Shown here piece by piece: positions 9,208-31,363 of a stretch of DNA of 64,000 nt. This DNA comes from Gordonia sp. SID5947 (GTDB lineage: Bacteria; Actinomycetota; Actinomycetes; Mycobacteriales; Mycobacteriaceae). The notes below the pieces were generated by a model. The model searched no databases. It was given only the letters and a program-made list of their open reading frames with translations, and was not told where the DNA came from. The stretch spans positions 4,898,001-4,962,000 of the forward strand of contig NZ_WWHU01000001.1 of assembly GCF_009862785.1 (NCBI RefSeq), in the 5' to 3' direction. How positions within the stretch are numbered: position 1 is the stretch's first letter; the number at the start of each line of letters is the position of its first letter. The position numbers were made by a program, and so were the translations under genes.

Positions 9208-10215
9208 ATGGTCGAGAAACGCGGCGGCAGAACCACGCTCGTCGACGTCGCACAGGCGGCGGGCGTGTCGAGAGCTCTCGTCTCGATCGTGATGCGCGGG
9301 GCGCCCGGCGCCAGCGACGAGACCCGCGATCGGGTGCTCCGGATCGCCGATGAGATGGGTTATGTCCCGGATCAGCGGGCGCGCAAGTTGCGTCAATCGT
9401 CGTCGCGTCTGCTCGGTGTCACTTTCGAGTTGCGTGAGCCGTTCCATGGCGACCTCGTCGAGGAGATCTACCGCGCAGCGGCCGAGGCCGGGTACGACGT
9501 CGTCATCAGTGCTGTCGCGCCGAGCCGATCTGAGTCGAATGCGGTCGACACGGTGCTGCGCGAGCGGTGTGAGGCAGCGATCCTGCTGGGTCCCCGCTTC
9601 GACGACATCGAGTTGTCGACGATCGTCGAACGGCTTCCGGTGGTCGTCGTGGCACGAGCGGGCGACGATCCGCGCGCCGGTTATGTGCGCAGTGATGACA
9701 GTGCCGGTATCGGTTTGGCGGTTGATCACCTGGTGGAACTCGGACACACGGCCATCGTGCACATCGACGGTGGCGATGCGCCCGGCGCGCACGAGAGGCG
9801 CTCCGGCTTCCGTGCGGCGATGAGCCGCCGTGGGTTTGGCGCCGGTCCGCGAGTGGTGCCCGGCGGACTCGGGCAGATCGACGGGGCCCGCGCGATGGAT
9901 GCGGTACTCGAAGGGGGTGACCCACCCACCGCGGTGATTGCCTTCAACGACGATTGCGCAACTGGCGTCATCGACACCATCATCCGCGCGGGGAAGACTG
10001 TGCCAGAGGATATCTCGGTGGTCGGCTATGACGATGCGAGGCTTGCGTCAGGGTTGCGGGTGCCACTGACGACCGTTTCCCAGGATGCGCGACAGATGGC
10101 CGATGACGCAGTGATCGGTGTGCTCTCGATGATCGATGGCGGTGATCCACCGGCAATCGTCGGTCGGCCACGGCTGGTCATACGCGGCACCACGGCGACC
10201 CGTCCGACGGCCTGA
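9208..10215 (+). CDS. LacI-family transcriptional repressor
   Basis: A 335-residue LacI/GalR protein: N-terminal helix-turn-helix and hinge (TTLVDVAQAAGVSRALVSIVM, about residues 9-60), then the periplasmic-binding-like sugar sensor, ending in the common FNDD...VVGYDD pattern. It is divergent from the dehydrogenase/isomerase pair, with two 13-base operators in between, so it very likely represses that operon and itself. The effector is unknown, presumably the pathway's sugar or cyclitol. Confidence 0.9.
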   Translation: MVEKRGGRTTLVDVAQAAGVSRALVSIVMRGAPGASDETRDRVLRIADEMGYVPDQRARKLRQSSSRLLGVTFELREPFHGDLVEEIYRAAAEAGYDVVISAVAPSRSESNAVDTVLRERCEAAILLGPRFDDIELSTIVERLPVVVVARAGDDPRAGYVRSDDSAGIGLAVDHLVELGHTAIVHIDGGDAPGAHERRSGFRAAMSRRGFGAGPRVVPGGLGQIDGARAMDAVLEGGDPPTAVIAFNDDCATGVIDTIIRAGKTVPEDISVVGYDDARLASGLRVPLTTVSQDARQMADDAVIGVLSMIDGGDPPAIVGRPRLVIRGTTATRPTA

Positions 10216-10309: not shown

Positions 10310-11836
10310 TCAGGCGTTCTGCGGGAAGCCCAAATTGAGGCCACCATGGCTGGGGTCGAGCCAGCGGCTGGTGATGGCCTTGCCGCGGGTGAAGAAGTTG
10401 ACGCCCTCCATACCGTGGGCATGGGTGTCGCCGAACAGCGAATTCTTCCAGCCACCGAAGCTGTAGTACGCCATCGGGACCGGGATGGGTACGTTGATGC
10501 CGACCATGCCGACCTCCACCTCGTTCTGGAAACGACGTGCCGCGCCACCGTCATTGGTGAAGATCGCGGTGCCGTTGCCGTACGGGTTGGAGTTGATCAG
10601 TTCGAGGGCCTCGTCATAGGTGTCGACTCGAATCACCGAGAGCACCGGGCCGAAGATCTCGTCGGTGTAGATGCTCATGTCGGTGGTGACGTTGTCGATC
10701 AGGGTCGGTCCCAGCCAGAAACCGTCGGTGTAATCGCTCGGCGCTTCGCTCGCTCCGGCACCACCGTCCACCTCGACCTGTCGGCCGTCGAGAACGATGG
10801 TGGCACCGTCCTTCTCGCCGGCATCGACGTAGGAGGCGACCTTGTCGCGGTGGGCCTTGGTCACCAGCGGCCCCATGTCGCTGTTCTTGGTACCGTCACC
10901 GATCTTGATGGTCTTGGCGCGGTCGGCGATCTTCTCGACGAGTTCATCGGCGATCGAGCCGACGGCGACACACGCCGAGATGGCCATGCATCGCTCACCG
11001 GCCGAACCGAACCCGGCGTTGACCATCGCGTCGGCGGTGACGTCGAGGTCGGCGTCGGGCAGCACGATGGCATGGTTCTTGGCACCACCGAGGGCCTGGA
11101 CGCGCTTGCCGGCGGCAGTGCCGGTGGCGTACACGTACTGGGCGATCGGGGTGGAGCCGACGAAGCTGATCGACTTGATCGATGTGTTGGTCAGCAGTTC
11201 GTCGACGGCGAGCTTGTCGCCTTGCAAGACGTTGAACACGCCGTCGGGCAGTCCGGCTTCCTTCCAGAGCTCAGCCAGCCACAGTGACGCCGACGGGTCC
11301 TTCTCCGACGGCTTGAGCACCACGGTGTTGCCGGCGGCGATGGCGATGGGGAAGAACCACATCGGCACCATGGCGGGGAAGTTGAACGGAGAGATGATGC
11401 CGATCGGCCCGAGAGGCTGGCGGATGGAGAACACGTCGACCTTGGTCGAGGCGTTCTCGGTGAACCCACCCTTGAGAAGATACGGTATGCCACAGGCGAA
11501 CTCCGCCACCTCTTGGCCGCGGCTGATCTCGCCGAGAGCGTCGGACAAGACCTTGCCGTGCTCGGCCGTGATGATCTCGGCCAACTCGGGCTTGCGTGCT
11601 TCGAGCAGCTCACGGAACTTGAAGAGGATCGCGGTGCGCTTGGCGAGGCTGGTGTCGCGCCAGGCGGGGAATGCTGATGCGGCGGCGTCGATCACCGCTC
11701 GCGCGTCCTCGAGATTCGCCAGCGACACATCCGCGGTGACCTCGCCGGTCGCCGGGTTGGTCACCGGCGCGGTCTTGCTGCTGGTGCCGGGGTAGGCCTT
11801 GTTGTTGACCCAGTGGCTGATGGTGGGTGTGGACAT
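10310..11836 (-). CDS. iolA: Methylmalonate/malonate semialdehyde dehydrogenase (IolA/MmsA)
   Basis: A 508-residue CoA-acylating aldehyde dehydrogenase converting malonate semialdehyde to acetyl-CoA (or methylmalonate semialdehyde to propionyl-CoA), the last step of inositol breakdown. The catalytic Cys is in AGERCMAIS; IISPFNFPAMVPMWFFP and the family-typical C-terminus are present. A longer open frame reaches 12196, but ATG at 11836 has GGAGG with a 7-base spacer and gives the usual N-terminus (MSTPTISHWVNNK). It is the last gene of the minus-strand iol core, separated from iolG by a 275-base repeat region. Confidence 0.93.
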   Translation of the reverse strand: MSTPTISHWVNNKAYPGTSSKTAPVTNPATGEVTADVSLANLEDARAVIDAAASAFPAWRDTSLAKRTAILFKFRELLEARKPELAEIITAEHGKVLSDALGEISRGQEVAEFACGIPYLLKGGFTENASTKVDVFSIRQPLGPIGIISPFNFPAMVPMWFFPIAIAAGNTVVLKPSEKDPSASLWLAELWKEAGLPDGVFNVLQGDKLAVDELLTNTSIKSISFVGSTPIAQYVYATGTAAGKRVQALGGAKNHAIVLPDADLDVTADAMVNAGFGSAGERCMAISACVAVGSIADELVEKIADRAKTIKIGDGTKNSDMGPLVTKAHRDKVASYVDAGEKDGATIVLDGRQVEVDGGAGASEAPSDYTDGFWLGPTLIDNVTTDMSIYTDEIFGPVLSVIRVDTYDEALELINSNPYGNGTAIFTNDGGAARRFQNEVEVGMVGINVPIPVPMAYYSFGGWKNSLFGDTHAHGMEGVNFFTRGKAITSRWLDPSHGGLNLGFPQNA

Positions 11837-11935
11837 GGGGTGTCCTCCTGTGGGGGGTGAAAGTGTGGTGGTGGTCGGGGTGATCTCGACTTCGGCAGCG
11901 CAGCCGGCGGGTCGAGACTGGGCGCGGGGTTCTGT

Positions 11936-12016
11936 TCCCTGAGGAGCGAGCTTGCGAGCGTCACGAAGGGCCCCTTCGTGACGGCCCTTCGCTGGCGCTT
12001 CGGGCCTCCTCAGGGA
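11936..12016. repeat. Nested inverted-repeat element
   Basis: Outer arms TCCCTGAGGAG (11936-11946) and CTCCTCAGGGA (12006-12016) enclose a strong inner hairpin, CGTCACGAAGG (11959-11969) with CCTTCGTGACG (11973-11983) and a 3-base loop. It looks like a short interspersed palindromic element. It could also attenuate transcription between iolG and iolA. Confidence 0.7.
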
Positions 12017-12108
12017 TCGGTCAAGGTCGGTCGGTGCTGGTCCTGAGGGATCGGTCAAGGTCGGTCGGTCCTGGTCCTGAGGGATCGGTGAAGATCGATC
12101 GGGTGTCG
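12007..12108. repeat. 34-base tandem repeat, three copies
   Basis: Three consecutive 34-base units start with TCCT(C/G)AGGGATCGGT, at 12007, 12041 and 12075. The first two are nearly identical and the third is diverged. The array runs into the 3' end of iolG and shares its first copy with the outer arm of the nested inverted repeat. With the element at 11936-12016 it fills the iolA-iolG gap, where no gene is supported. Confidence 0.75.
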
Positions 12109-12111
12109 TCC

Positions 12112-13173
12112 TCAGGCGCCGGGAATCGAAGCGCGCGAGACCATCTCGACCGTTTGTGACTCGCCGGTTTCGAGAGCCTTGACGCCGGCCGCGCACACGG
12201 CTGCAGCGGCGTACCCGTCCCAGGCGCCGGGGCCGTCGACATTGGTCCCGGCCCGCACCGCGTTGACCCAGCGCTGGATCTCGACGTCGTAGGCCACGCC
12301 GAACCGCTCGACGAAGGACGGAGTGATGTCGCCGCCCCAGACTCCCGCGATCTTGCGGCCGTCACCGGTGTCCTTCTGGACCGGGTTGCGGCGCTTGCTG
12401 ATCAGACCTTGGTCGAGGCCGATGAATGCCGAACCGAGCTCGCCGACCAGCTCGGTGCGCACCTCGTAGGCGACGCCGGTGGTGACGAAGCACTCGACGT
12501 CGACGTGGCGGCCGGACTCGGTGGTGAAGATCGCGATCTGCGGATCCTTCAGGCCTTCGGGCGCGTTCGGATTGGCTCCGGGGGCGATGATCTGCACCGA
12601 GGTGATCTCCTCGTCGAAGAAGAACCGCGTCGCGTCGACCTCGTGGACGAGCGAGTCCTTGACGATCATCGAGCTGTCGAAGCTCGGGGGCACCGCAGGG
12701 TTGCGGTGGACGAAGTGCGCCATCAGGGCCTTACCGAAGGTCCCGTCGTCGATGAGTCCCTTGAGCTGCTCGTACTCGTGGTCGAAGCGACGCATGAACC
12801 CGACCTGGATGAGCTTGCGGCCCAACTCCGCTTCGCGCTTGACGATCTCCAACGATGTGGCGACGTCGGTGGTCAGCGGCTTCTCGCACATGACGGGCTT
12901 GTTGTTCTCCAGGCAGGCGAGCAGCTGCTTCTCGTGCGTGGGGCCAGGTGTGGCGAGAATGACGGCGTCGACCTCGGGGTCGGCGATCGCGTCGAGGGGA
13001 TCGTTGATGACCCTGCATCCCGGGATCGACGACGCGAGTTCCTCGGCCTTCTCCGGAACGTAGTCGTTGAGTACGGTCACGGTGGCGCCCTTGGTGCGCT
13101 CCGTGATGCGGGCGACGTGGTCGGCGCCCATCATGCCGACGCCGAGGACGGCGATGCGCAGGTCCGTGGTCAT
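12112..13173 (-). CDS. iolG: Inositol 2-dehydrogenase (Gfo/Idh/MocA family)
   Basis: A 353-residue NAD-dependent dehydrogenase expected to oxidise myo-inositol to 2-keto-myo-inositol (scyllo-inosose). It shows LGVGMMGADH (cofactor loop), CEKPLT (catalytic Lys) and VHEVDATR (substrate Asp/His motif). ATG at 13173 overlaps the iolD stop by 4 bases and has GGAGGAG 5 bases upstream; the open frame continues much further but without family similarity. Its place between iolD and iolA supports the iolG assignment. Four other members of this family lie in the window. Confidence 0.92.
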   Translation of the reverse strand: MTTDLRIAVLGVGMMGADHVARITERTKGATVTVLNDYVPEKAEELASSIPGCRVINDPLDAIADPEVDAVILATPGPTHEKQLLACLENNKPVMCEKPLTTDVATSLEIVKREAELGRKLIQVGFMRRFDHEYEQLKGLIDDGTFGKALMAHFVHRNPAVPPSFDSSMIVKDSLVHEVDATRFFFDEEITSVQIIAPGANPNAPEGLKDPQIAIFTTESGRHVDVECFVTTGVAYEVRTELVGELGSAFIGLDQGLISKRRNPVQKDTGDGRKIAGVWGGDITPSFVERFGVAYDVEIQRWVNAVRAGTNVDGPGAWDGYAAAAVCAAGVKALETGESQTVEMVSRASIPGA

Positions 13174-16128: not shown

Positions 16129-17031
16129 TCACCTCACCAGGTTGACCGCGGTGTCGACCGCGGTGGCCACGTCATCGTCGGCCGGATAGAGGAGGGTACG
16201 TCCCACGATCAGGCCACGTACCGACGGGATACGCAGGGCGCGTTCCCAACTCGCGAACGTCTCGTCCGGTGCGGTCTGCGGGTCCCCGCCCAGCAGCAGG
16301 GTCGGCAGGGTGGTGGCGTCCATGACGCGTTCCATCTCGTCGACCACCGGCAGCTTGAGCCAGGTGTAGGCCGACGTGGAGCCGAGCCCCTGCACGATGT
16401 GCATCGACTTGATCACCGCGTCGGCGGTGAGGTCGTTGCGAACCTTGCCGTCGATGCGGGAGGACAGGAACGGTTCGAGCATGGCGATCGAGCCGCCGGC
16501 GGCGAGCTCGTCGACGGCGGCCGCGCACGCCGTCATCATGTTGAGCGTGCCCTCGTCGGCGAGGTCCACCCGGCACAGCATCTTCGCGCCGTTGAGGCCC
16601 GCATCGATGGTCCAGGACGCGGTGGCCGAGGTCATCCGATCGTCGAGCTCGAAAGACGCGCCGGCGAGACCGCCACGATTCATCGAGGAGAACACCACCT
16701 TGTCTTCGAGGGCACCGAGGAGCAGCAGGTCCTCCAGGACATCGGAGGTGGCCAGCACCCCGTCGACGCCGGGATTGGCCAGCGCGGTGCGCAGACGATC
16801 GAGCAGGTCCGACCGGCTGTTCATCGCGATCGGGTTCGCTCCGACGGCCAGTGCACCGCGAGCCGGATGGTCGGCGGCGACGATCATGAGTCGGTCGGTA
16901 CCGGTCACCGTCGGGCGCCTGCGGCGCCGGGCCCAGGCCTCGGCGATGGCTTGCGGATGAGTGGCGCGGACCGCCGTCACCTCGGCATAGGTGGAACACC
17001 GCGTGGCCGCGACGGCGTCGCGGTCGATCAC
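16129..17031 (-). CDS. Aldolase-like (beta/alpha)8 protein of the iol cluster
   Basis: A 300-residue TIM-barrel protein of the DeoC/LacD aldolase type, resembling a protein found in corynebacterial iol clusters (Cgl0159-like; recalled, not searched). Its conserved stretches include LMIVAADHPARG, DGVLATSDVLEDLLLLG and LLLGGDP. It follows iolC by 30 bases and precedes iolB by 4. No classical iolJ is present, so it is the best candidate for cleaving 2-deoxy-5-keto-gluconate 6-phosphate into DHAP and malonate semialdehyde. The start is GTG at 17031. The aldolase role is inferred from pathway logic. Confidence 0.75.
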   Translation of the reverse strand: MIDRDAVAATRCSTYAEVTAVRATHPQAIAEAWARRRRRPTVTGTDRLMIVAADHPARGALAVGANPIAMNSRSDLLDRLRTALANPGVDGVLATSDVLEDLLLLGALEDKVVFSSMNRGGLAGASFELDDRMTSATASWTIDAGLNGAKMLCRVDLADEGTLNMMTACAAAVDELAAGGSIAMLEPFLSSRIDGKVRNDLTADAVIKSMHIVQGLGSTSAYTWLKLPVVDEMERVMDATTLPTLLLGGDPQTAPDETFASWERALRIPSVRGLIVGRTLLYPADDDVATAVDTAVNLVR

Positions 17032-17061
17032 GGCTCCGGGGGGCCGGTGGGCGTCGCGACC

Positions 17062-18073
17062 TCAGACATTGAGCTTCTCCTGTCGGGTGGTGGCCGGGCC
17101 GGGGACCCCGGTGGCCTTCTCTGCCACTTCCTCGGCGGTGGGCATGGCGGTCGAACACTCGAGCCGGCCCGCCACGATGGCTCCGGCGGCGTTGGCGTGA
17201 CGCAGGATCTTCTCCAGCGGCCAGCCCTCGAGCAATCCGTGGCACAGGCTGCCGCCGAAACTGTCGCCTGCGCCGAGTCCGTTCACGACGTCGACCGCCA
17301 CGGGCGCGACCTCGACGGTTTCGGTGCGTGTCTTGCCGAGTACCCCCTTGGGGCCCTGTTTGACGATGGCCAGCTCCACCCGAGGTCGAGAAGTGCGTCG
17401 GCCGCGGCGTGGGGATCTGTCTCGCCGACTGCGATCTCGCACTCCTCGCGGTTGCCCACCGCGACGGTGACATGTGACAAGGCACGACGGACCTGCTCGG
17501 TGGCCGCCTGCGCGGTGGCCCAGAACATCGGCCGGTAGTCGAGATCGAGAACCGTGAGCGACTGCCGGCCACGCGCCTCCCACGCGGCGAAGTGCGCACT
17601 GCGCGAGGCTCTTCGGACAGGCCGGTGACGGTGGACCAGTAGAGGCGCGCGTCGTGGACCGCGGCGGCGTCGATGTCGTCGACCGTGACCTGCAGATCCG
17701 GGGCGCTCGGCTTGCGATAGAAGTAGAGGGGGAAATCGTCCGGTGGGAAGATCTCGCAGAATGTGACCGGCGTGGCGTACTTGTCGTCGATCTCGACGAA
17801 TCGGTTGTCGACTCCCAATCGGACGAGCTCGCTGCGTACGAAGCGCCCGAACGGATCGTCGCCGACGCCGGAGATGAGCGCGCTGCGCTGCCCGAGCCGC
17901 GCGGCGGCCACGGTCACGTTCGCCGCGCTGCCGCCGAGGAACTTGCCGAAGCTCGTGACCTCCTCGAGGCCCACCCCGATCTGCTGAGGGTAGATGTCGA
18001 CACCGCTGCGACCGATCGCCAGCACGTCGAAATCGGGTGCGGCACCCAAACGGGATTGTTGCTGTGCGGTCAC
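17062..18073 (-). pseudogene. iolC: 5-dehydro-2-deoxygluconokinase, interrupted by two frameshifts
   Basis: A PfkB-family sugar kinase that would phosphorylate 2-deoxy-5-keto-gluconate. Similarity runs through three frames: residues from MTAQQQSRLGAAPDFDVLAIG to TGLSEEP, then SAHFAAWEARGR to ADALLDLG, then VELAIVKQGPKG to the end, which includes the PfkB motif NGLGAGDSFGG. The breaks are at a 2-base G run (17607-17608) and a 3-base C run (17379-17381) on the plus strand; adding one base at each restores a 337-residue kinase. GTG at 18073 has GGGAG 6 bases upstream. Because both shifts are homopolymer losses, sequencing error is more likely than real decay. Confidence 0.85.
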
Positions 18074-18177
18074 GTACTGCTCCCTGCTCGTGGTCGGACG
18101 GGCGGCGTGCGACGGGACTGGCTTCCCGGCTTCCGTGCCATCCACTGTGCGTCAGTTCACAACTCAAAGTCAATACT

Positions 18178-18188
18178 TTGTCCTGACA
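18178..18188. promoter_or_regulatory. iol regulon motif at the iolC / dehydrogenase divergent promoter
   Basis: TTGTCCTGACA matches the TTGTC-NN-GACA(A) motif seen also at 20887-20897, 30295-30306 and 31380-31390. It overlaps a second dyad, CAAAG-TCAATA-CTTTG (18165-18180). Position between divergent iol genes suggests a repressor site. Confidence 0.55.
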
Positions 18189-18253
18189 TTCTTACCTGGC
18201 ATAGTGGTGTCGGAGATCACATGGCCTCACAGGCCTGTCGAAGGGAATCGGAG

Positions 18254-19462
18254 ATGACAGTCGACGCCGCAACGGCGACCACCGCGACCACGCCTGATGA
18301 CGCCGCCGTGCTGCCGGTCGGCATCGTCGGCTTCGGCTGGATGGGACGTGCTCACGCCCAGGCCTACGCGCGCATCCGGCATCACTATCCGGAGTTGAGG
18401 CCGGTGCCCAAGCTGATGGTGATCGCCGACGAGGTCCCCGTGCGCGCCGCCGAGGCGGCCGCCCAGTTCGACGTGCCGTCGACAGTTGCCGACTGGCAGC
18501 GCGTGGTCGACGACCCGATGATCAAAGCGGTCAGCGTCACTGCGCCGAACTTTCTGCACCGGGAGATCGGTTGTGCCGTCGTCTCGGCAGGCAAACACCT
18601 GTGGATCGAGAAGCCGGTCGGTCTGTCCGCAGACGATGCTGCGGCGGTCGCGACCGCCGCGCGAGCCACCGGCGTGCGTACCGCGGTCGGATTCAACTAC
18701 CGCAACGTGCCCGCGGTCGCCGCGGCGCGGGAAATGATCGCGTCCGGCGGGATCGGGGAGGTGACCCATGCGCGGTTCCGATTGTTCAGCGATTACGCAG
18801 CGCATCCCGACGGTGCCCTGAGCTGGCGTTTTCAGCGCGCACGCGGTGGCAACGGGGTGCTCGGTGACCTGGCGTCACACGGCGCGGACCTGGTGTGGTT
18901 TCTCCTGGGCGACGTCGAGTCCGTGGTCGCCGACACGGCCGTCTTCGTCACGGACCGACCCAGGCCGACCGGAACGACGTCCGGTCACCAATTGGCCTCC
19001 GGGGGTGAACGCGGACCGGTGGAGAACGAGGACTACGTCTCCGCACAGATGCGGATGACCTCGGGCGCGCGGTGCGTGCTGGAGGCCAGTCGGGTCTCGG
19101 TCGGCGCGCAGAACTCGTACGGCTTCGAGATCCATGGAACCGAGGGTGTGGTGCGGTGGGACTATCGGCGCATGGGAGAACTCGAGGTCGGCAGCGGCCA
19201 GGAGTATCAGGACCTGGCAGTGGCGACCAGATTCGTCGGCCCGGGGGCCGGTGACTACGCCGCGTTCCAACCCGGCGCCGCCAATCCGATGAGCTATGAC
19301 GATCTCAAGGTGATCGAGGCGGCCCGGTTCTGCGCGTCGGTCACCGATCCCGCCGAAGCGGGCGCGACGATCGACGACGCGGTCCGCAGCGCCCGGGTAC
19401 TCGATGCGATGAGCACATCGGTTCGTGAGGGCACCTGGGTCTCACCCGACACGCAGGGGTGA
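18254..19462 (+). CDS. Gfo/Idh/MocA-family dehydrogenase
   Basis: A 402-residue NAD(P)-dependent oxidoreductase, longer than IolG. It has the cofactor loop VGFGWMGRAH, the Lys motif IEKPVG, the FNYRNVP motif and the substrate-side LASHGADLVWFL. ATG at 18254 has AGGGA about 7 bases upstream; an in-frame ATG at 18220 is an alternative. It is divergent from iolC and overlaps the next MFS gene by 4 bases (GTGA), so the transporter may import this enzyme's substrate. Probably oxidises an inositol isomer or related polyol. Confidence 0.85.
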   Translation: MTVDAATATTATTPDDAAVLPVGIVGFGWMGRAHAQAYARIRHHYPELRPVPKLMVIADEVPVRAAEAAAQFDVPSTVADWQRVVDDPMIKAVSVTAPNFLHREIGCAVVSAGKHLWIEKPVGLSADDAAAVATAARATGVRTAVGFNYRNVPAVAAAREMIASGGIGEVTHARFRLFSDYAAHPDGALSWRFQRARGGNGVLGDLASHGADLVWFLLGDVESVVADTAVFVTDRPRPTGTTSGHQLASGGERGPVENEDYVSAQMRMTSGARCVLEASRVSVGAQNSYGFEIHGTEGVVRWDYRRMGELEVGSGQEYQDLAVATRFVGPGAGDYAAFQPGAANPMSYDDLKVIEAARFCASVTDPAEAGATIDDAVRSARVLDAMSTSVREGTWVSPDTQG

Positions 19463-20866
19463 TCGACCGGCCGGGCCGCGCCTCGCGATCTGCGGACTTC
19501 CCGTACGCGCTTGCCCTTCTCGGGCCGGTGCGCTCTTCATGGAGATCCTCGACGCGACGATCGTCGCCACCGCGCTTCCGGCGATCGCCGCAGATCTCGG
19601 GGTCCGGCCTCTCGGCGCGGGCATCGTGGTGACCTCGTACCTGATCACTCTTGCGGTCTTGATCCCGTTGTCGGGCTGGGTTGCCGACCGTTTCGGGGTG
19701 CGCCGGGTGTTTGTGATCGCGGTTGCGGTGTTCACCCTGGCCTCTGCGGGATGCGCTCTGGCGCCTGATCTTCAGGGTCTGGTCACGATGCGCGTCCTGC
19801 AGGCGATAGGGGGCGCCATGATGGTGCCGGTGGGCAGGCTTGCCGTGTTACGCACCGTCGAGCGCGCCCAGTTGGTGAGGGCCATCGCGTACCTGACGTG
19901 GCCTGCGCTCATCGCGCCGGTGGCGGCGCCGCTGATCGGCGGCCTGATCGTGACGCACGCGGACTGGCGGCTCATCTTCGCCATCAACATCCCGATCGGT
20001 ATCGCGGGCCTGGTGGCCGCTGCCATCTGGTGCCGGCCCACGGAAGTCGATGTCGGTCGGCGGCGTCTCGACCTGCTCGGGTCGCGCTCACCACGCTGGC
20101 GGTCGGCGCGGCGATGCTGGCCGCACAGGAGATCTCGGCCGATTCGCCGCGATGGGTGCTGGTGGCGACGGGTGTCGTCGGCGCAGCGATCGCCGGTGTG
20201 GGTGCTGTTCGGCGCATGCAGAGCTCGCCGTATCCGCTGCTCGATCTGCGGGTGCTGCACGTGTCGTCGTTTGCCTTCGTGGTGGGTTTCGGAACCGTGT
20301 ATCGGGTGGCGATCAGCGCGGTTCCGTTCTTGTTGCCGTTGATGTTCCAGCTCCAGTTCGGGTGGACGCCGGTGGCCGCAGGCGCGATGGTGACAGCGCT
20401 GTTCGCCGGGAACGTCGTCATCAAACCCCTCACCACGCCGCTGATGCGCCGGTGGGGGATCCGGCGGGTCCTGATGGTCGACCTCCTGGTGTCGGTGGTG
20501 GCTTTCGTCGCACTCGCGGTGCTCGGCGAGGCGACCTCGGCCGTGGTGATCGCGGCGGTTCTGGTGGCGTCGGGCGCGCTCCGCTCGGTGGGATTCTCCG
20601 CCTACAACACGTTGGCATTCGCCGACGTCGACGCCGGTGAACTCAGTGATGCGAATGCCGTACACGCCGCGGTCCAGGAGCTCGGCGCCGCGTTCGGGGT
20701 GGCTCTCGGGGCGGTCGCGGTGTCCGCCTTCGCCCTCGCCGACGGGCTGCCGGCGGGCGCATACTCGGCAGCCTTCTTGTTGCTCGGCGCCTTGATGGCG
20801 GTGTGTGCGCTCGGCGTCTTGCGGCTGCCTCCCAACGCTGGTGCCAGTGCCGTTGGAGCCCACTGA
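19459..20866 (+). pseudogene. MFS transporter, DHA2-type, interrupted by two frameshifts
   Basis: An approximately 14-helix drug/metabolite:H+ antiporter-type permease. The frame starts at GTG 19459, which overlaps the dehydrogenase stop, continues as FPYALALLG, shifts at GGG 19522-19524 into ALFMEILDATIVATALP, and shifts again at GGG 20079-20081 from RLDLLG into VALTTLAVGAAML. Adding one G at each run gives a continuous 469-residue protein of normal length. The motif ADRFGVRR and the ILDATIV helix are typical of the family. It is co-transcribed with the dehydrogenase. The shifts match the homopolymer-loss pattern seen elsewhere in the window, so the gene may be intact in the organism. Confidence 0.8.
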
Positions 20867-20930: not shown

Positions 20931-20987
20931 TCATCTCCAGGAGAGTGCTCCGTCGAACACTCTGTACAGCGAAGGGAAGATACAACG

Positions 20988-22013
20988 ATGGATTCCACGG
21001 AAGGTCGCCGGAGCCGCCGGCAGCGTCGGCTGATCGGGATCGCCGCTGCACTGTCGTCCGCGGTGCTGATCGTCGCGGGTTGTTCGAGCACTGGTGGTGC
21101 GCCCGACGACGACGACAACGGGGGCGGGGGCGCGGGCAACGCCGGCACCCCGACCAAGACCATCGCGATGATCACCCACGAGGTTCCGGGTGACTCGTTC
21201 TGGGATCTGATCCGCAAGGGGGCCGAGATGGCCGCCAAGAAGGACAACATCAAACTGCAGTACTCCGCGGATCCGGAGGCGCCGAATCAGGCCAACCTCG
21301 TCCAGACGGCGATCGACAGCAAGGTCGACGGCATCGCCTTGACGCTGGCCAAGCCGGACGCGATGGCACCTGCCGTGAAGAAGGCTCTCGCCGCCGGTAT
21401 CCCGGTGGTGGCGTTCAATGCCGGCTACGACGACTGGAAGGCGATGGGCGTCCAGCAATACTTCGGCCAGGACGAGACGCTGGCCGGCAAGACGGCGGGC
21501 GAGCGCCTCACAAAGGACGGGCGCAAGAAGGTCCTGTGTGTCATCCAGGAGCAGGGGCAGGTCGCCCTCGAGTCACGATGCGCGGGTGTCAAGCAAGGCT
21601 TCACCGGTGGCGGTTTCGAGATCCTCAACGTCAACAGCAAGGACATGCCGTCGGTCGAGGCGACCATGACCGCCAAGCTGCAGCAGGATCCGTCGATCGA
21701 CACCGTCGTGGCCCTCGGCGCACCGATCGCGCAGACCGCCGTGCAGTCCAAGAGCAACGCCGGGTCCAATGCCGAGATCGTCACCTTCGACACCAACGCG
21801 GCTCTGGTTCCCCTGATCCAGAACGGCGACGTGAAGTGGGCAGTCGATCAGCAGCCCTATCTGCAGGGCTACGAGGCAGTCGATTCCCTGTGGCTCTATC
21901 TCACCAACGGGAACACCATCGGCGGTGGTGAGGCCGTTCTGACCGGGCCCGCATTCATCGATGAATCGAACATCGACAAGGTCGCCGAGTACGCCAAGGG
22001 CGGCACTCGCTGA
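20988..22013 (+). CDS. Sugar/cyclitol ABC transporter, substrate-binding lipoprotein
   Basis: A 341-residue periplasmic-binding-like lipoprotein of the ribose/inositol (RbsB/IbpA-type, Peripla_BP_4) family. A positively charged N-terminus, hydrophobic helix and lipobox VAGC (Cys32) direct it to the outer face of the membrane; a Gly/Asp-rich linker precedes the sensor domain. AAGGGA lies about 10 bases before ATG 20988. It is the first gene of a transporter operon within the iol locus and carries an iol-type motif in its promoter. The ligand is probably an inositol; this follows from context. Confidence 0.9.
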   Translation: MDSTEGRRSRRQRRLIGIAAALSSAVLIVAGCSSTGGAPDDDDNGGGGAGNAGTPTKTIAMITHEVPGDSFWDLIRKGAEMAAKKDNIKLQYSADPEAPNQANLVQTAIDSKVDGIALTLAKPDAMAPAVKKALAAGIPVVAFNAGYDDWKAMGVQQYFGQDETLAGKTAGERLTKDGRKKVLCVIQEQGQVALESRCAGVKQGFTGGGFEILNVNSKDMPSVEATMTAKLQQDPSIDTVVALGAPIAQTAVQSKSNAGSNAEIVTFDTNAALVPLIQNGDVKWAVDQQPYLQGYEAVDSLWLYLTNGNTIGGGEAVLTGPAFIDESNIDKVAEYAKGGTR

Positions 22014-22047: not shown

Positions 22048-23106
22048 ATGAGTACACAAACTGATCTCGACCTGTCCACGCACAAGGTCGTCACCGACGA
22101 GCGGGTGAAACGGCAGAAGCCGTGGCAGCGTTTGCTGCTTCGACCGGAGATCGGCGCACTGTTCGGCGCGGTCGCCATCTTCATCTTCTTCTGCGTCGTG
22201 GCCGCGCCGTTCCGGACCCCGGAGGCATTGGCCACCATCCTGTACGCGAGTTCGACGATCGGCATCATGGCCTGCGGTGTCGCCGTTCTGATGATCGGCG
22301 GTGAGTTCGACCTATCGACCGGTGTCGCGGTGACGTTCTCGTCGCTCGCCGCCTCGATGCTCGCCTACAACCTGCACCTCAACGTCTGGCTCGGCGCGGT
22401 ACTCGCTCTGGTGCTGGCCCTGGCCGTCGGCTTCTTCAACGGCTACCTGGTGATGAAGACGAAGATCCCGTCGTTCCTGATCACCCTGTCGACCTTCCTG
22501 ATGCTGACCGGAATCAACCTCGCGGTGACCAAGCTGGTCACCGGCCAGGTCGCGACCCCCTCCATCTCGGACATGCAGGGCTTCGACTCCGCGCAGAAGG
22601 TTTTCGCGTCGTCGTTCACCCTGCTCGGGGTGTCGGTGCGCATCACCGTGGTCTGGTGGATTCTGTTCACGCTGGTGGCCACCTGGGTGCTCATGCGGAC
22701 CCGCGTCGGCAACTGGATCTTCGCGGTCGGTGGCGGCCAGGACTCGGCGCGTGCGGTCGGCGTACCGGTGACCAAGGTAAAGATCGGCATGTTCATGTTC
22801 GTCGGGTTCTGCGCCTGGTTCGTCGGCATGCACCTGCTGTTCGCGTTCGACACCGTGCAGTCCGGTCAAGGTGTCGGCAACGAGTTCTTCTACATCATCG
22901 CCGCCGTGGTCGGTGGCTGTCTGCTCACCGGCGGATACGGAACCGCGGTCGGTGCGGCGATCGGTGCCTTCATCTTCGGCATGGTGAATCAGGGCATCGT
23001 CTACGCCGGCTGGAATCCCGACTGGTTCAAGTTCTTCATGGGTGCGATGCTGCTCTTCGCGGTGATCGCCAACAACAGTTTCCGCAACTACGCGGCCAAG
23101 AGGTGA
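22048..23106 (+). CDS. Sugar/cyclitol ABC transporter, permease
   Basis: A 352-residue polytopic permease of the RbsC/BPD_transp_2 family, with about 8-10 membrane segments and family stretches such as GGEFDLSTGV and NGYLVMKTKIPSFLITL. A hydrophilic N-terminal arm of about 35 residues precedes the first helix. GAGGAAA lies just before ATG 22048. It is 34 bases after the lipoprotein gene and 7 before the ATPase gene, forming a single-permease importer. Confidence 0.9.
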   Translation: MSTQTDLDLSTHKVVTDERVKRQKPWQRLLLRPEIGALFGAVAIFIFFCVVAAPFRTPEALATILYASSTIGIMACGVAVLMIGGEFDLSTGVAVTFSSLAASMLAYNLHLNVWLGAVLALVLALAVGFFNGYLVMKTKIPSFLITLSTFLMLTGINLAVTKLVTGQVATPSISDMQGFDSAQKVFASSFTLLGVSVRITVVWWILFTLVATWVLMRTRVGNWIFAVGGGQDSARAVGVPVTKVKIGMFMFVGFCAWFVGMHLLFAFDTVQSGQGVGNEFFYIIAAVVGGCLLTGGYGTAVGAAIGAFIFGMVNQGIVYAGWNPDWFKFFMGAMLLFAVIANNSFRNYAAKR

Positions 23107-23113
23107 CACGACG

Positions 23114-23926
23114 ATGAGTTCAGCAATGGAGACACGACCCGAATCGGAGTCCAGCGGCGGCAAGGTGCCACTGATCGAGCTCCGCAACGTCGGCAAGGCA
23201 TACGGCGCGATCATCGCGCTCAAGGACATCAGCCTTCGGGTCAACGCAGGCGAGGTGACCTGCGTCCTCGGCGACAACGGTGCGGGCAAGTCCACTCTGA
23301 TCAAGATCATGGCCGGTCTGCACCAGCAGACCGAGGGCGAGCTGCTCATCGACGGTGAGACGACGATGCTCGAATCGCCCAAGCACGCGCTCGAGACCGG
23401 GATCGCGACGGTGTACCAGGACCTCGCGGTGGTCGGGCTGATGCCGGTGTGGCGCAACTTCTTCCTCGGCCAGGAACTGCGCAAGGGGCCGTTCCGCATG
23501 CTCGACATCCAGGCGATGCGGGCGACCACCAAGGAAGAACTGTTCAAGATGGGCATCGACCTGCCGGACGTCGACGCACCGATCGGTTCGCTGTCAGGTG
23601 GTCAGCGTCAGTGTGTGGCGATCTCCCGGGCGATCTACTTCGGCGCCCGCGTACTCATCCTCGACGAGCCAACCGCCGCGTTGGGCGTCAAACAGTCGGG
23701 CACGGTGTTGCGGTACATCTCGGCCGCGCGCGACCAGGGGTTCGGCGTCGTCTTCATCACGCACAACCCGCACCACGCGCACATGGTGGGCGACCACTTC
23801 GTGTTGCTCAACCGTGGGAGGCAGAAGCTGGACTGCACCTACGACGAGATCACTCTCGACGAACTCACCCAGCAGATGGCCGGTGGTGACGAACTCGACA
23901 CGTTGAGTCACGAGCTACGGCGCTGA
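23114..23926 (+). CDS. Sugar/cyclitol ABC transporter, ATP-binding protein (single NBD)
   Basis: A 270-residue ATPase: Walker A GDNGAGKST (residues 53-61), signature LSGGQ (160-164), Walker B VLILDE (180-185), and switch His in FITHN. Ribose-type ATPases (RbsA) are usually two fused nucleotide-binding domains of about 500 residues; this one has only one and would have to act as a homodimer, as in the FrcA-like subfamily. It ends 14 bases before a strong terminator hairpin. Confidence 0.9.
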   Translation: MSSAMETRPESESSGGKVPLIELRNVGKAYGAIIALKDISLRVNAGEVTCVLGDNGAGKSTLIKIMAGLHQQTEGELLIDGETTMLESPKHALETGIATVYQDLAVVGLMPVWRNFFLGQELRKGPFRMLDIQAMRATTKEELFKMGIDLPDVDAPIGSLSGGQRQCVAISRAIYFGARVLILDEPTAALGVKQSGTVLRYISAARDQGFGVVFITHNPHHAHMVGDHFVLLNRGRQKLDCTYDEITLDELTQQMAGGDELDTLSHELRR

Positions 23927-23940
23927 GTCGAGTTCGATGT

Positions 23941-23976
23941 GATCCCGCCCGGCCCATCCGTGGACCGGGCGGGATC
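23941..23976 (+). terminator. Terminator hairpin after the ABC transporter
   Basis: GATCCCGCCCGG (23941-23952) pairs perfectly with CCGGGCGGGATC (23965-23976) around a 12-base loop, followed by TCGTTT. This is a strong candidate for the end of the transporter transcript and separates it from the chimeric gene downstream. Confidence 0.75.
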
Positions 23977-24039
23977 TCGTTTCCGCCACCTTCCGGTCTG
24001 CGTGCGGGATACGTTGTGAGGCAGGAGAAAGGACCGGTC

Positions 24040-25218
24040 ATGGTGCAGGGGGAGACGTGGGACGGTCGGCATCGTCTGGTCGGGGTGGTGTTCGCGGCGT
24101 CGAGCCCGTTCGAGGCGGATCTGGTCGCCGAACTGTATGCGGCGGCGGACGCGGCCGGGTATCGGTTGGCGCTGGGGCTGCACGGAGCGGAACGGACACG
24201 CGCACGCGCGTGCGCGGACCTCGCCGACCAGGGATGCGCGGCGATCATCGTGGTGGGTGCCGAGCACGGGGACCGGTATGTGTGCGACGTCCCAATCGTC
24301 GTGGTCGGTGAGCGTATCCCGGATCTCGTGGCGGTGACGGTCGGGACCGACGAGTGGCGAGGTGCGCAGATGGCGGTTCAGCACCTGATCGATCTCGGCC
24401 ACACCTCCATCGCCCACATCGAGGGCGGCGACCATCCGTGCGCCGCCGAACGACTGCGGGGATACCTCGGAGCGATGACCGCTGCCGGCTATCGCGACGA
24501 ATGCCGGACCCTGGTCGGCGACTACACCGAGGAGGCCGGTGCGCTGGCGGCGGAGCGACTCCTCGCCGAGGGGAATCTACCGACCGCGGTCTTCCTGGCG
24601 AATGACAGGATGGCTGTCGGCTTCATCGATGTCATGCGGCACAACGGTGTTCGCGTGCCCGAGGACATGTCCGTGGTCGGCTACGACGACGGACCGCACA
24701 TGGTGCTCGGGCATGTGAACCTCACGACGATCCGCCAGGACGTGACCGGGCTCGGTCTCGCCGCCGTGGACGCGGTGGCTTCGCTCCTCGGTGATTCCGG
24801 GCAGCCCGCCAACACGGGAGGGCTCGGCTTCTACGGTGCGATCGCGCTGGAACCCGAGTTGATGGTGCGCGGTACCACGGGGCCGCCCGCCGGTGCGGAT
24901 CCCCGCACGGACACCGGACGTGAACGCGTGCGGTGGGGCCTGCTGGCGGATACCTGCGACGACGCGCTGGTGCGTGAACTGGGTACGCCCGGAGTGGTGT
25001 CGGGCGCGATCGAGGTGGTGGCAAGTGCGTCCACCGCGGTCGCGTGGGAGATCGCCGACCGACTGGGCATCTTGGTCAGTTACGGACTCTACGAAGACCT
25101 CATCGACGACCCCGAGATCGATGCGATCTACATCGCGTTGCCGGCCGACGCGCAGGAGGTGTGGGCCATCAAGGCACGAGAGGCCGGCAAGCTCGTGCGG
25201 TGCGCGCCTGTCGAATAG
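24040..25218 (+). CDS. Chimera: LacI-type sugar-sensor domain without DNA-binding domain, fused to a truncated Gfo/Idh NAD domain
   Basis: A 392-residue protein with an unusual layout. Residues 10-282 match the LacI/GalR effector domain (RLVGVVFAASSPFEADLVAEL through FLANDRMAVGF, VVGYDD and the terminal LMVRGTTG), but the helix-turn-helix and hinge are absent. A linker leads to residues 297-392, which match the N-terminal half of a Gfo/Idh/MocA dehydrogenase (RWG at the cofactor loop; SYGLYEDLIDDPEIDAIYIALP; WAIKAREAGK). The glycine loop has degraded to GLLADTCDD and the catalytic CEKP has become CAPVE just before the stop. ATG 24040 has GGAGAAAGGA upstream. It may be an orphan sensor or a recombination relic; neither DNA binding nor redox activity is expected. 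Confidence 0.8.
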   Translation: MVQGETWDGRHRLVGVVFAASSPFEADLVAELYAAADAAGYRLALGLHGAERTRARACADLADQGCAAIIVVGAEHGDRYVCDVPIVVVGERIPDLVAVTVGTDEWRGAQMAVQHLIDLGHTSIAHIEGGDHPCAAERLRGYLGAMTAAGYRDECRTLVGDYTEEAGALAAERLLAEGNLPTAVFLANDRMAVGFIDVMRHNGVRVPEDMSVVGYDDGPHMVLGHVNLTTIRQDVTGLGLAAVDAVASLLGDSGQPANTGGLGFYGAIALEPELMVRGTTGPPAGADPRTDTGRERVRWGLLADTCDDALVRELGTPGVVSGAIEVVASASTAVAWEIADRLGILVSYGLYEDLIDDPEIDAIYIALPADAQEVWAIKAREAGKLVRCAPVE

Positions 25219-25236: not shown

Positions 25237-26238
25237 TCATCTCGGTTCGAGGCCGACCGCGCGATAGGCGTCGTCGAGGAACCGCATGTTCGTGACGGCA
25301 TCGTCGAGACCGATCGGCAATGCCGTCCCGTGTTCGACCGCCGCGGCGAAAGCCTCCAATTGGTAGGTGTAGGTCGACCGGGTGCCCAGATGTTCGACAG
25401 CGACGGTCCCGTCCACCGACGACACCACCGTCAGACGGTCGTCACGGCTTGGTGCGAGATAGTCGTGCAGGAACACGCTGCCGTTCTCACCGACGATCCG
25501 GAGACTGAACACATAGTCGCCGGCGACCATCGAGATCGCATGTGTTCCACTGGCGCCGTTGGGATAGCGGATGTCGAGAACCGCGGACTCGTCGATCTGA
25601 GGTCCGCGGAGGACGGCTCGTCCGCCGGTGATGCGCGGCGGGCCACCGCACCACGGGCCGAGCACGCGTGAGACGTGCAATGAATAGCAGCCGAGGTCCA
25701 TCAAGGCGCCGCCGGCGAGGTCGTAGGACCACCGCGGATCGGTGTCACCGGGAGCGGGCATCGCCATCACCACCTCGACATGCCGGACATCGCCGATCGT
25801 CCCACCCTCGAGCAACTCGACGGTGCGCGCCATGAGGGGATGGAACAGGTAGTGGAAGCCCTCGAGAATCGGCACACCCGCGGCCACGGCGGCCGCGGCG
25901 ACCTGTTGCGCCTCGGACTCGTTGCGCGCGAAGGGCTTCTCGGAGAGCACAGGCTTGCCGGCCCGGACGGCCGCGAGATTCCACGGCCCGTGCAGCGAGT
26001 TCGCCAGCGGGTTGTAGATGACGTCGACCTCGGGGTCGTCGATGACATCCTGGTAGGTGTCGAGCACTCGCTCCACCCCGTACTTGCGCGCGAACGCCTC
26101 GGCACGACCGCGATCGCGGGCCGCCACGGCGACCAGACGATGGCCGAGGGCCTGCGCCGGGCCGACGATCGCCGACTCGGCGATGCGGGACGCACCGAGC
26201 ACCCCGATCCGTAGCGGACGGCCGGATGGGGCGGTCAC
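25237..26238 (-). CDS. Gfo/Idh/MocA-family oxidoreductase
   Basis: A 333-residue NAD(P)-dependent oxidoreductase with cofactor loop LGASRIAESA, Lys motif SEKPFA and ALMDLGCYSLH, the pattern of the trans-dihydrodiol/sugar dehydrogenase branch rather than classical IolG. GTG at 26238 overlaps the iolE stop by 4 bases and is preferred; the frame stays open to 26748 inside iolE without family similarity. It is the last gene of the phyH-SDR-dehydrogenase-iolE operon. It converges on the chimeric gene, whose C-terminus is a relative of this protein's N-terminal half. Confidence 0.85.
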   Translation of the reverse strand: MTAPSGRPLRIGVLGASRIAESAIVGPAQALGHRLVAVAARDRGRAEAFARKYGVERVLDTYQDVIDDPEVDVIYNPLANSLHGPWNLAAVRAGKPVLSEKPFARNESEAQQVAAAAVAAGVPILEGFHYLFHPLMARTVELLEGGTIGDVRHVEVVMAMPAPGDTDPRWSYDLAGGALMDLGCYSLHVSRVLGPWCGGPPRITGGRAVLRGPQIDESAVLDIRYPNGASGTHAISMVAGDYVFSLRIVGENGSVFLHDYLAPSRDDRLTVVSSVDGTVAVEHLGTRSTYTYQLEAFAAAVEHGTALPIGLDDAVTNMRFLDDAYRAVGLEPR

Positions 26239-30201: not shown

Positions 30202-30294
30202 GTGCGTGCGCTCCTCTCGGGATGAAGGTCGGGATGCGAGATCGGGCCCTCGGCGGTTCCGCCGTGATCACTTGACCAGAATGGCAAGATCTTA

Positions 30295-30306
30295 TTGTCC
30301 GGACAA
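30295..30306. promoter_or_regulatory. Palindromic operator between phyH operon and lacI
   Basis: TTGTCCGGACAA is a perfect 12-base palindrome with a central CG, sitting 38 bases before the lacI GTG and 94 bases before the phyH ATG. It is the most symmetrical copy of the motif shared by the iol promoters. Either the adjacent LacI or the GntR protein could bind it. Confidence 0.65.
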
Positions 30307-30343
30307 GAGCAGATATCCATCAAGAATCCCTCAGGAGTGTCCC

Positions 30344-31363
30344 GTGCCACATCGCTATCCGATCCGGGAGATCGCCCGGCAGGCGGGGGTGAGCGAAGCG
30401 ACCGTCGACCGGGTCCTACACGGGCGAGCAGGCGTGCGTGAGGGAACCGTGTTGCAGGTCGAGCAGGCCATCACCGATCTCGACCGGCAGCGCACCCAGT
30501 TGCGGCTGTCCGGTCGACGCTTCTTGATCGACCTCGTCATGGAGACGCCGCGGCAGTTCTCCGGTCTGGTGCGTGAGGCGATGGAGCAGGTGTTCCCGGC
30601 ACTTCGTCCGGCGGTGATGCGGGCGCGCTATCACCTCCGGGAGACCTGGGAGACCGACGACCTCATCGCCGAGCTCGACGCGATCGCCCGACAGGGCAGT
30701 CATGCCGTGGTGCTGAAGGCGCCGGACACACCCGAGGTGGCCGCGGCAATCGGCCGGCTCACTTCCGCGCGGGTCCCGGTGATCACCCTGGTGACCGATG
30801 TGCCGATGAGCACGCGGATCGCCTACGTCGGGATGGACAACCGTGCCGCCGGGGCCACTGCCGGATACCTGATGTGTCAATGGCTCCGGCACGTGCGAGC
30901 CGACGTGCTGGTGCTCACCAGCAGTGCGATGTTCCGCGGAGAAGAGGAGCGCGAGATGGGGTTCCGGTCGGCGATGCGCACCTACGATCCCGGCCGTCGG
31001 GTGGTCGAGGTGTCGGAGTCGGACGGGCTCGACGCGACCTGCGAGACGCTCGCCGCCCGCGCGCTGCGCGAGTTCCCGGACATCGGAGCGGTGTACTCGA
31101 TCGGCGGCGGCAACCGGGGCATCGTCGCGGCGTTCGGTGCCGCCGGGCGGACCTGCGAGACGTTCATCGGACACGATCTCGGCGATGCGAACCGGGCGCT
31201 GCTGCGCAGTGGCCACCTCACCGCGGTGTTGCACCATGATCTGCGGGCGGACATGCGGCAGGTGGCGCAGTCGGTGATGCGCTTCCACGGTGCGATCCCC
31301 GGCGACCAGCCGTCGGCGGTGTCGGGGATTCAGATCGTCACCCCACACAATCTTCCCGATTGA
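30344..31363 (+). CDS. LacI-family transcriptional regulator (iol locus)
   Basis: A 339-residue regulator: helix-turn-helix at the N-terminus (PIREIARQAGVSEATVDRVLH), then a ribose-binding-protein-like sensor related to Peripla_BP_4. GTG 30344 has GGAG with a 6-base spacer; upstream codons are not conserved. It is divergent from the phyH-iolE operon with the palindrome TTGTCCGGACAA between them. Together with the GntR gene 60 bases downstream, it probably controls the locus in response to a cyclitol. Confidence 0.88.
   Translation: MPHRYPIREIARQAGVSEATVDRVLHGRAGVREGTVLQVEQAITDLDRQRTQLRLSGRRFLIDLVMETPRQFSGLVREAMEQVFPALRPAVMRARYHLRETWETDDLIAELDAIARQGSHAVVLKAPDTPEVAAAIGRLTSARVPVITLVTDVPMSTRIAYVGMDNRAAGATAGYLMCQWLRHVRADVLVLTSSAMFRGEEEREMGFRSAMRTYDPGRRVVEVSESDGLDATCETLAARALREFPDIGAVYSIGGGNRGIVAAFGAAGRTCETFIGHDLGDANRALLRSGHLTAVLHHDLRADMRQVAQSVMRFHGAIPGDQPSAVSGIQIVTPHNLPD

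Follow-up and report, generated by a model that had tools for sequence, protein, structure and literature searches.

LacI-family regulators combine a helix-turn-helix (HTH) domain with an effector domain, and a comparative study describes this domain structure as rigid (PMC4052901). One LacI-type protein, IpsA of Corynebacteria and Mycobacteria, is described as having myo-inositol as its effector (PMC3899939), and in Pseudomonas aeruginosa the binding of acetamide by AmiC is described as freeing AmiR (PMC5259723). In this report, we analyze a LacI-derived protein with a different layout, encoded in a 64,000-nucleotide stretch of the genome of Gordonia sp. SID5947 (contig NZ_WWHU01000001.1, positions 4,898,001 to 4,962,000; hereafter the window, whose own numbering is used throughout). 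In the open-access literature that was searched, partly with narrow terms, no paper describing this layout was found. IpsA binds DNA (PMC3899939), whereas the protein studied here has no HTH; the likeness between the two lies in the LacI type and in the effector, myo-inositol for IpsA and a putative cyclitol for the Gordonia protein.

The fusion gene (24040..25218, + strand) encodes 392 amino acids (P0001), in which a LacI effector domain without an HTH is followed by half of a Gfo/Idh NAD fold; the open reading frame, its translation and Pfam confirm the frame, the coordinates and the domain order given in the first-pass annotation of this DNA. The effector, or ligand, domain covers residues 10-282 (24067..24885, +) and is recognized from Pfam, from the solved relatives 3k9c and 9nt3 and from signature residues. 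Over the 392 residues, Pfam places PF13377 at 113-257 (E = 1.6e-29) and PF00532 at 16-243 (E = 2.7e-15); PF13377 was found in all 19 members with this layout, and among solved sequences 3k9c is the nearest to the LacI part (3.2e-56, using the A1 profile). P0001 therefore has an effector domain as defined for the LacI family (PF00532, PF13377 or PF13407), which it shares, signature residues included, with LacI/GalR factors such as RbsR and PurR and, by sequence, with 3k9c and 9nt3. N188, D189 and D216 occur in all 19 aligned members and R138 in 18 of them, and we take these residues, by motif and after LacI and PurR, to be ligand-site positions. Unlike the LacI/GalR factors, however, the fusion has no HTH (PF00356) and continues after the effector domain into a conserved Gfo/Idh half-domain. 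None of the 19 members matched PF00356 in Pfam at E ≤ 0.01, and with only 113 nt between the stop codon of the upstream ATPase gene and the ATG of the fusion gene, an HTH cannot fit there, so that the absence of the DNA-binding domain, as first reported, is upheld. Because the family's HTH is missing from every member (0/19), the protein is LacI-derived but falls outside the class of LacI-family regulators, and the NCBI name 'LacI family DNA-binding transcriptional regulator' carried by P0003 and P0004 is misleading.

A variable linker (residues 283-296; 24886..24927, +) leads into residues 297-386 (24928..25197, +), a conserved half-domain of the Gfo/Idh/MocA NAD(P) Rossmann type, which stops before the EKP motif. 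In P0001, the match of this tail to PF01408, the Gfo/Idh NAD fold, extends over residues 326-386 with an E value of 6e-4 and 20.9 bits, below the 24-bit cut-off. As 13 of the 19 members match PF01408 at E ≤ 0.01 and the tail alone matches the sequences of the solved Gfo/Idh proteins 4had (1.5e-9), 1ydw (4.5e-9) and 4koa (1.7e-5), the tail match is not due to chance. The fusion shares with Gfo/Idh/MocA proteins (P0121, P0122, 4had, 1ydw, 4koa and glucose-fructose oxidoreductase) the first NAD(P) Rossmann half, up to GKxV, but it lacks the dinucleotide loop, the EKP and the C-terminal domain of these oxidoreductases. The former dinucleotide loop (residues 300-308; 24937..24963, +) keeps G300 in all 19 members and has lost its second glycine in every one of them, residue 303 being A, T, V or L and residue 304 D or E; the degraded glycine loop noticed in the single sequence is thus a property of the whole group. 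Past the second strand, residue 330 is A or S throughout (19/19), neither acidic nor basic. EKP was found in none of the 19 members, whose chains end 2 to 20 residues past GKxV with C-terminal ends that vary by lineage, and the cysteine at 388 occurs in just four. The earlier statement that the catalytic CEKP had become CAPVE is therefore misleading, since the dehydrogenase part was truncated at this point, not mutated there. In addition, no member matched a Gfo/Idh C-terminal domain in Pfam (PF02894 or PF22725). Invariant positions of the tail include W336, Y348, Y351 and W375. The fusion protein very probably binds no NAD(P), and with neither an HTH nor a dinucleotide loop it should be neither a classical repressor nor a dehydrogenase.

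Whole-protein and profile searches, with 8000 scored candidates each, recovered the same two-part layout in at least 18 database clusters, counting that of P0001. The whole-protein search with the full 392 residues, which had been suggested as a check, thus found at least 17 other clusters, at 57-89% identity to P0001. A profile of 19 full-layout proteins revealed no additional members among the best 120 of 181 matches, and, among the best 120 of 282 and of 181 matches, query coverage of at least 94% was confined to the 18 known clusters, the next match reaching at most 73%. One of these clusters, P0002, is labelled Streptomyces sp. SID6673 and is 89% identical to P0001; the label may stand for a misassigned Gordonia. 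Shorter relatives also exist, namely P0019 and P0020, which have neither HTH nor tail, and P0021 of Williamsia maris, which has an HTH and no tail. Among 397 genomes of the order, with at most four candidates scored per genome, only genomes G000 and G080 contained the full layout at E ≤ 1e-70. Within the genus, an orthologue at E ≤ 1e-80 is present in 13 of 59 genomes, as the full two-part form in 11 and as an HTH-less, tail-less form in two (G010 and G006), and none of the 13 matches contains an internal stop. Relatives thus possess orthologues, and do not carry the two halves only as separate full-length genes, either of which the first-pass annotation would have taken as the sign of a local fusion relic.

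The conservation test that had been called for was carried out with Nei-Gojobori dN/dS ratios, computed for 13 of the 55 pairs that 11 genomes can form. In the eight closest pairs (82-97% identity in the LacI half), the LacI half had a dN/dS of 0.09-0.13 and the tail one of 0.02-0.13, and in two further pairs the tail gave 0.10-0.16. In the three most distant pairs, which involve G033 or G035, the ratio rose to 0.17-0.47 in the tail and to 0.28-0.38 in the LacI half, at tail dS values of 0.8-1.7, where the Nei-Gojobori method is unreliable. Mean pairwise identity across the 11 genomes was 75% for the LacI part, 77% for the tail, 84% for its core (residues 323-366) and 25.5% for the linker. The tail is under purifying selection and equals the LacI half in conservation, and the pattern of two conserved domains joined by a drifting linker is that of a working fusion. 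The shared layout and the purifying selection together rule out a local relic.

We then consider where the two halves came from. In a tree of the LacI-domain columns (48 rows, without the near-duplicates P0002, P0003 and P0018-P0020 and without more distant LacI rows), all HTH-less proteins group in a single clade (99/98), and its sister is the HTH-bearing protein of W. maris (100/100). The gene for the latter belongs to the same iol locus and lies 3' of the same genes for a substrate-binding protein, a permease and an ATPase, with a sugar isomerase-like gene (read by eye) between the ABC genes and the LacI gene. The position of this sister beside the same ABC genes points to a local repressor whose HTH was lost in place, which seems the simplest reading; the ancestor would have been a LacI repressor next to the neighboring ABC importer, and the loss would have occurred in the Gordonia lineage. 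The tail-less proteins of G010 and G006 nest among the tail-bearing ones, to the exclusion of G033 (97/94). This topology favors a tail that was gained once and lost once, in G010/G006, but a single tail-bearing clade was not rejected in the 48-row tree (p-AU 0.276) or in a 40-row tree (p-AU 0.353), the two trees agreeing in their conclusions. No convincing remnant of a tail was found 3' of the tail-less genes of G010 and G006, the better matches being the neighboring dehydrogenase or near chance. The full-length dehydrogenases closest to the tail, ahead of those of the locus itself, are the database proteins P0121 (42% over 93 aa) and P0122 (39% over 97 aa), from a search with 301 scored candidates that missed the known members P0015, P0017 and P0018. 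The Gfo/Idh dehydrogenase that converges on the fusion gene (25240..26223, -) is full length by Pfam and matches the tail at E = 4e-4 in a search of its own genome (37% over 60 aa), and a dehydrogenase elsewhere in that genome is closer (E = 2.7e-5). With this non-locus enzyme, P0121 and P0122 all closer to the tail, the converging gene is not supported as the donor and is not the evident source. A fusion by recombination with the converging gene, as had been considered at first, is at odds with the shared layout, the purifying selection, the full-length state of that enzyme on the opposite strand and its weaker match.

The locus itself provides the pathway context. Upstream of the fusion gene lie genes for an ABC substrate-binding protein (20940..22013, +), an ABC permease (22051..23106, +; by Pfam) and an ABC ATPase with one nucleotide-binding domain (23114..23926, +). 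The NCBIfam model nearest to the substrate-binding protein is of the rhizopine type, at 180.7 bits against a cut-off of 420, and this nearest model, taken with the neighboring iol genes, hints at a cyclitol as the ABC substrate. The loci of 12 relatives were retrieved and eight compared gene by gene; seven of the eight have the order substrate-binding protein, permease, ATPase and fusion-type gene. G035 has its ABC genes on a separate contig, and its fusion gene adjoins the MFS and Gfo3 genes. The same locus encodes a candidate partner, the HTH-bearing LacI paralogue LacI_HTH1 (9208..10215, +), which is 40% identical to the LacI half of the fusion and, in the 48-row tree, is not the closest relative of the fusion clade. 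A further LacI protein is encoded at 30272-31363. One and the same set of 13 genomes out of 59 contains the fusion gene, the permease (E ≤ 1e-120), an IolD of at least 87% identity and a LacI_HTH1-type protein, with thresholds of E ≤ 1e-80 for fusion orthologues and E ≤ 1e-60 for LacI_HTH1-type proteins, weaker LacI relatives being common. At E ≤ 1e-200, IolD is present in 17 of the 59 genomes, the four outside the 13 at 57-60% identity, and a strict LacI_HTH1 orthologue (at least 61%) is present in nine of the 13, while G035, G028, G080 and G010 have only relatives at 46-53%. As the locus is inherited as a unit, these 13 genomes cannot be counted as so many independent events, and because of this joint inheritance the co-occurrence speaks for a place in the pathway more than for any single partner.

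Several further features of the locus were observed. In the window, iolC (16172-18173, -) is split over more than one frame, either by a sequencing error or by decay, and most of the relatives compared have one frame of 341-406 codons; similarly, the MFS transporter gene (19425-20866, +) occupies two frames here and one longer open frame in relatives. In G026 and G028, the fusion gene is separated from the converging dehydrogenase by a gene that, read by eye, encodes an NADH dehydrogenase-like flavoprotein (11153-12553 of locus L039, and the equivalent in L040). In G035 (L168, 2634-8585), the interval from the ABC ATPase to the converging dehydrogenase contains no LacI-type gene, and an HTH-bearing LacI, 40% identical to LacI_HTH1, is encoded about 2 kb upstream of the gene for the substrate-binding protein.

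Between the ATPase and the fusion gene lie a terminator-like, GC-rich 12-bp hairpin (23941..23976, +), a possible promoter element read by eye, GGGATACGTTGT (24006..24017, +), with a -10-like TACGTT, and a likely ribosome binding site, AGGAGAAAGGA (24023..24033, +), which ends 6 nt 5' of the ATG and recurs as the same stretch in G032 and G077. In each of the ten full-layout loci where the ATPase lies upstream, the spacer measures 113-166 nt and contains a GC-rich hairpin, and eight of the ten contain GGGATACGTTGT or a one-base variant of it (by eye), while the window spacer taken as a whole folds only marginally better than shuffled sequences (z -1.64; 13 of 200 shuffles as good). In the tail-less loci, the gene follows the ATPase gene by 21 nt (G010) or overlaps it by 4 nt (G006). 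Upstream of the fusion gene, 16-nt palindromes were sought with a simple scan, which detected none in 13 of 14 loci and one, about 185 nt upstream, in G035. No shared LacI operators emerged from such simple palindrome scanning of the 14 loci. A palindrome, CAAAGTCA-AGACTTTG, was seen upstream of Gfo3 in seven of the 14 loci, the equivalent region of the window being approximately 18146-18250; at the same stringency it is absent from the window's own locus. It is a possible operator of iol genes.

Our proposal, to which we assign an even chance of being right, is that the protein, functional and conserved, serves in the cytosol as the receptor of a cyclitol or a related sugar, a former LacI repressor that acts through protein contact on a LacI protein still bearing its HTH. 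A ligand domain retained in a locus for import and catabolism argues for sensing, and hence for protein contact as the output. A small ligand would still be bound in the LacI cleft, and, since the family's DNA-binding domain is gone, the protein would act through protein-protein contact. LacI proteins work as dimers through the effector domain, so that mixed pairing via the LacI core with an HTH-bearing LacI of the same cell would be the simplest route and the likeliest form of such contact. The level of the ligand or of the receptor would then tune the real repressor, the ligand, the dimerization, the partner and this direction of regulation being what we infer, and the dead Rossmann half may serve as an added docking or assembly surface. 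Counting against this proposal are the presence of a strict LacI_HTH1 orthologue in just nine of the 13 genomes, the finding that another protein is closer to the fusion clade than LacI_HTH1, and the lack of 16-nt palindromes upstream of the fusion gene in 13 of the 14 loci scanned. The original suggestion of a soluble sensor, a decoy or a partner for a real repressor fits best, in view of the signature residues, the missing HTH and the presence of an HTH-bearing LacI of one broad subfamily in 13 of 13 genomes; its other option, a fusion by recombination, is the part that is not supported. A comparable logic may be seen in AmiC-AmiR, in which a ligand sensor steers a separate regulator by contact. 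AmiC is cytosolic and has a periplasmic-binding-protein-like fold without a DNA-binding domain; to our knowledge, it is neither a LacI descendant nor equipped with a dehydrogenase tail, and differs from the fusion in both respects.

The main rival to mixed LacI pairing is that the protein is a regulatory subunit of the adjacent ABC importer, sensing the imported sugar inside the cell and acting on the ATPase or permease by inducer exclusion or feedback; we regard this as unlikely, though worth keeping in mind. The sharing of a permease orthologue and the fusion gene by one set of 13 genomes out of 59 fits this reading, as do the 4-nt overlap in G006 and the 21-nt gap in G010, which resemble co-translated subunits, and G035, which keeps both genes although the fusion gene is unlinked from the ABC genes. 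However, the ten full-layout loci separate the gene from the ATPase by 113-166 nt with a hairpin, eight of them with a possible promoter of its own, and the Williamsia sister beside the same ABC genes is an HTH-bearing LacI. The conserved tail scaffold, stripped of its cofactor residues, and the five Gfo/Idh genes in the locus (three by Pfam, two by eye) would suit an accessory or decoy subunit of a Gfo/Idh dehydrogenase, whose half NAD fold would dock to a real dehydrogenase, with the LacI half gating that enzyme in response to the pathway sugar. This we consider improbable, because Gfo/Idh enzymes use a C-terminal domain for assembly, and the tail has none, and because no dehydrogenase of the locus is specially close to the tail. 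A decaying gene, a repressor without its HTH that acquired a fragment, could account for its presence in only 13 of 59 genus genomes and for the missing tail in G010 and G006, but it is very improbable in view of the purifying selection on both halves, the absence of internal stops from all 13 matches and a layout stable down to 57% identity. That the tail is a new DNA- or RNA-binding output domain, regulating by nucleic acid contact, finds its sole support in the DNA-binding-regulator layout of the closest HTH-bearing relative and is equally hard to credit, with no Pfam DNA-binding match at E ≤ 0.01 in any of the 19 members.

The reading we prefer, a disarmed LacI receptor acting on a real repressor by contact, may extend to a more general one. 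Tentatively, and with less confidence, we suggest a new class of co-regulator, in which a LacI protein disarmed in place and joined to a pseudo-dehydrogenase half-fold would convey the cyclitol level to the repressors or transporters of the iol locus by contact. Yeast Gal80p is a Gfo/Idh-fold protein that serves gene regulation, not catalysis, and has a full-length Gfo/Idh fold that binds NAD(P), whereas the fusion tail is half an NAD domain with its loop gone. If the suggestion is true, the fusion would be a bacterial counterpart of the use of a dead dehydrogenase fold in sugar regulation. The clade has dropped the DNA-binding half of a LacI protein and kept the ligand half, and most of its members keep a non-catalytic half-Rossmann fold under strong purifying selection. 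Together with the HTH-bearing sister at the matching place in W. maris, this HTH-less clade provides a testable case of the passage from a repressor to a protein that does not bind DNA.
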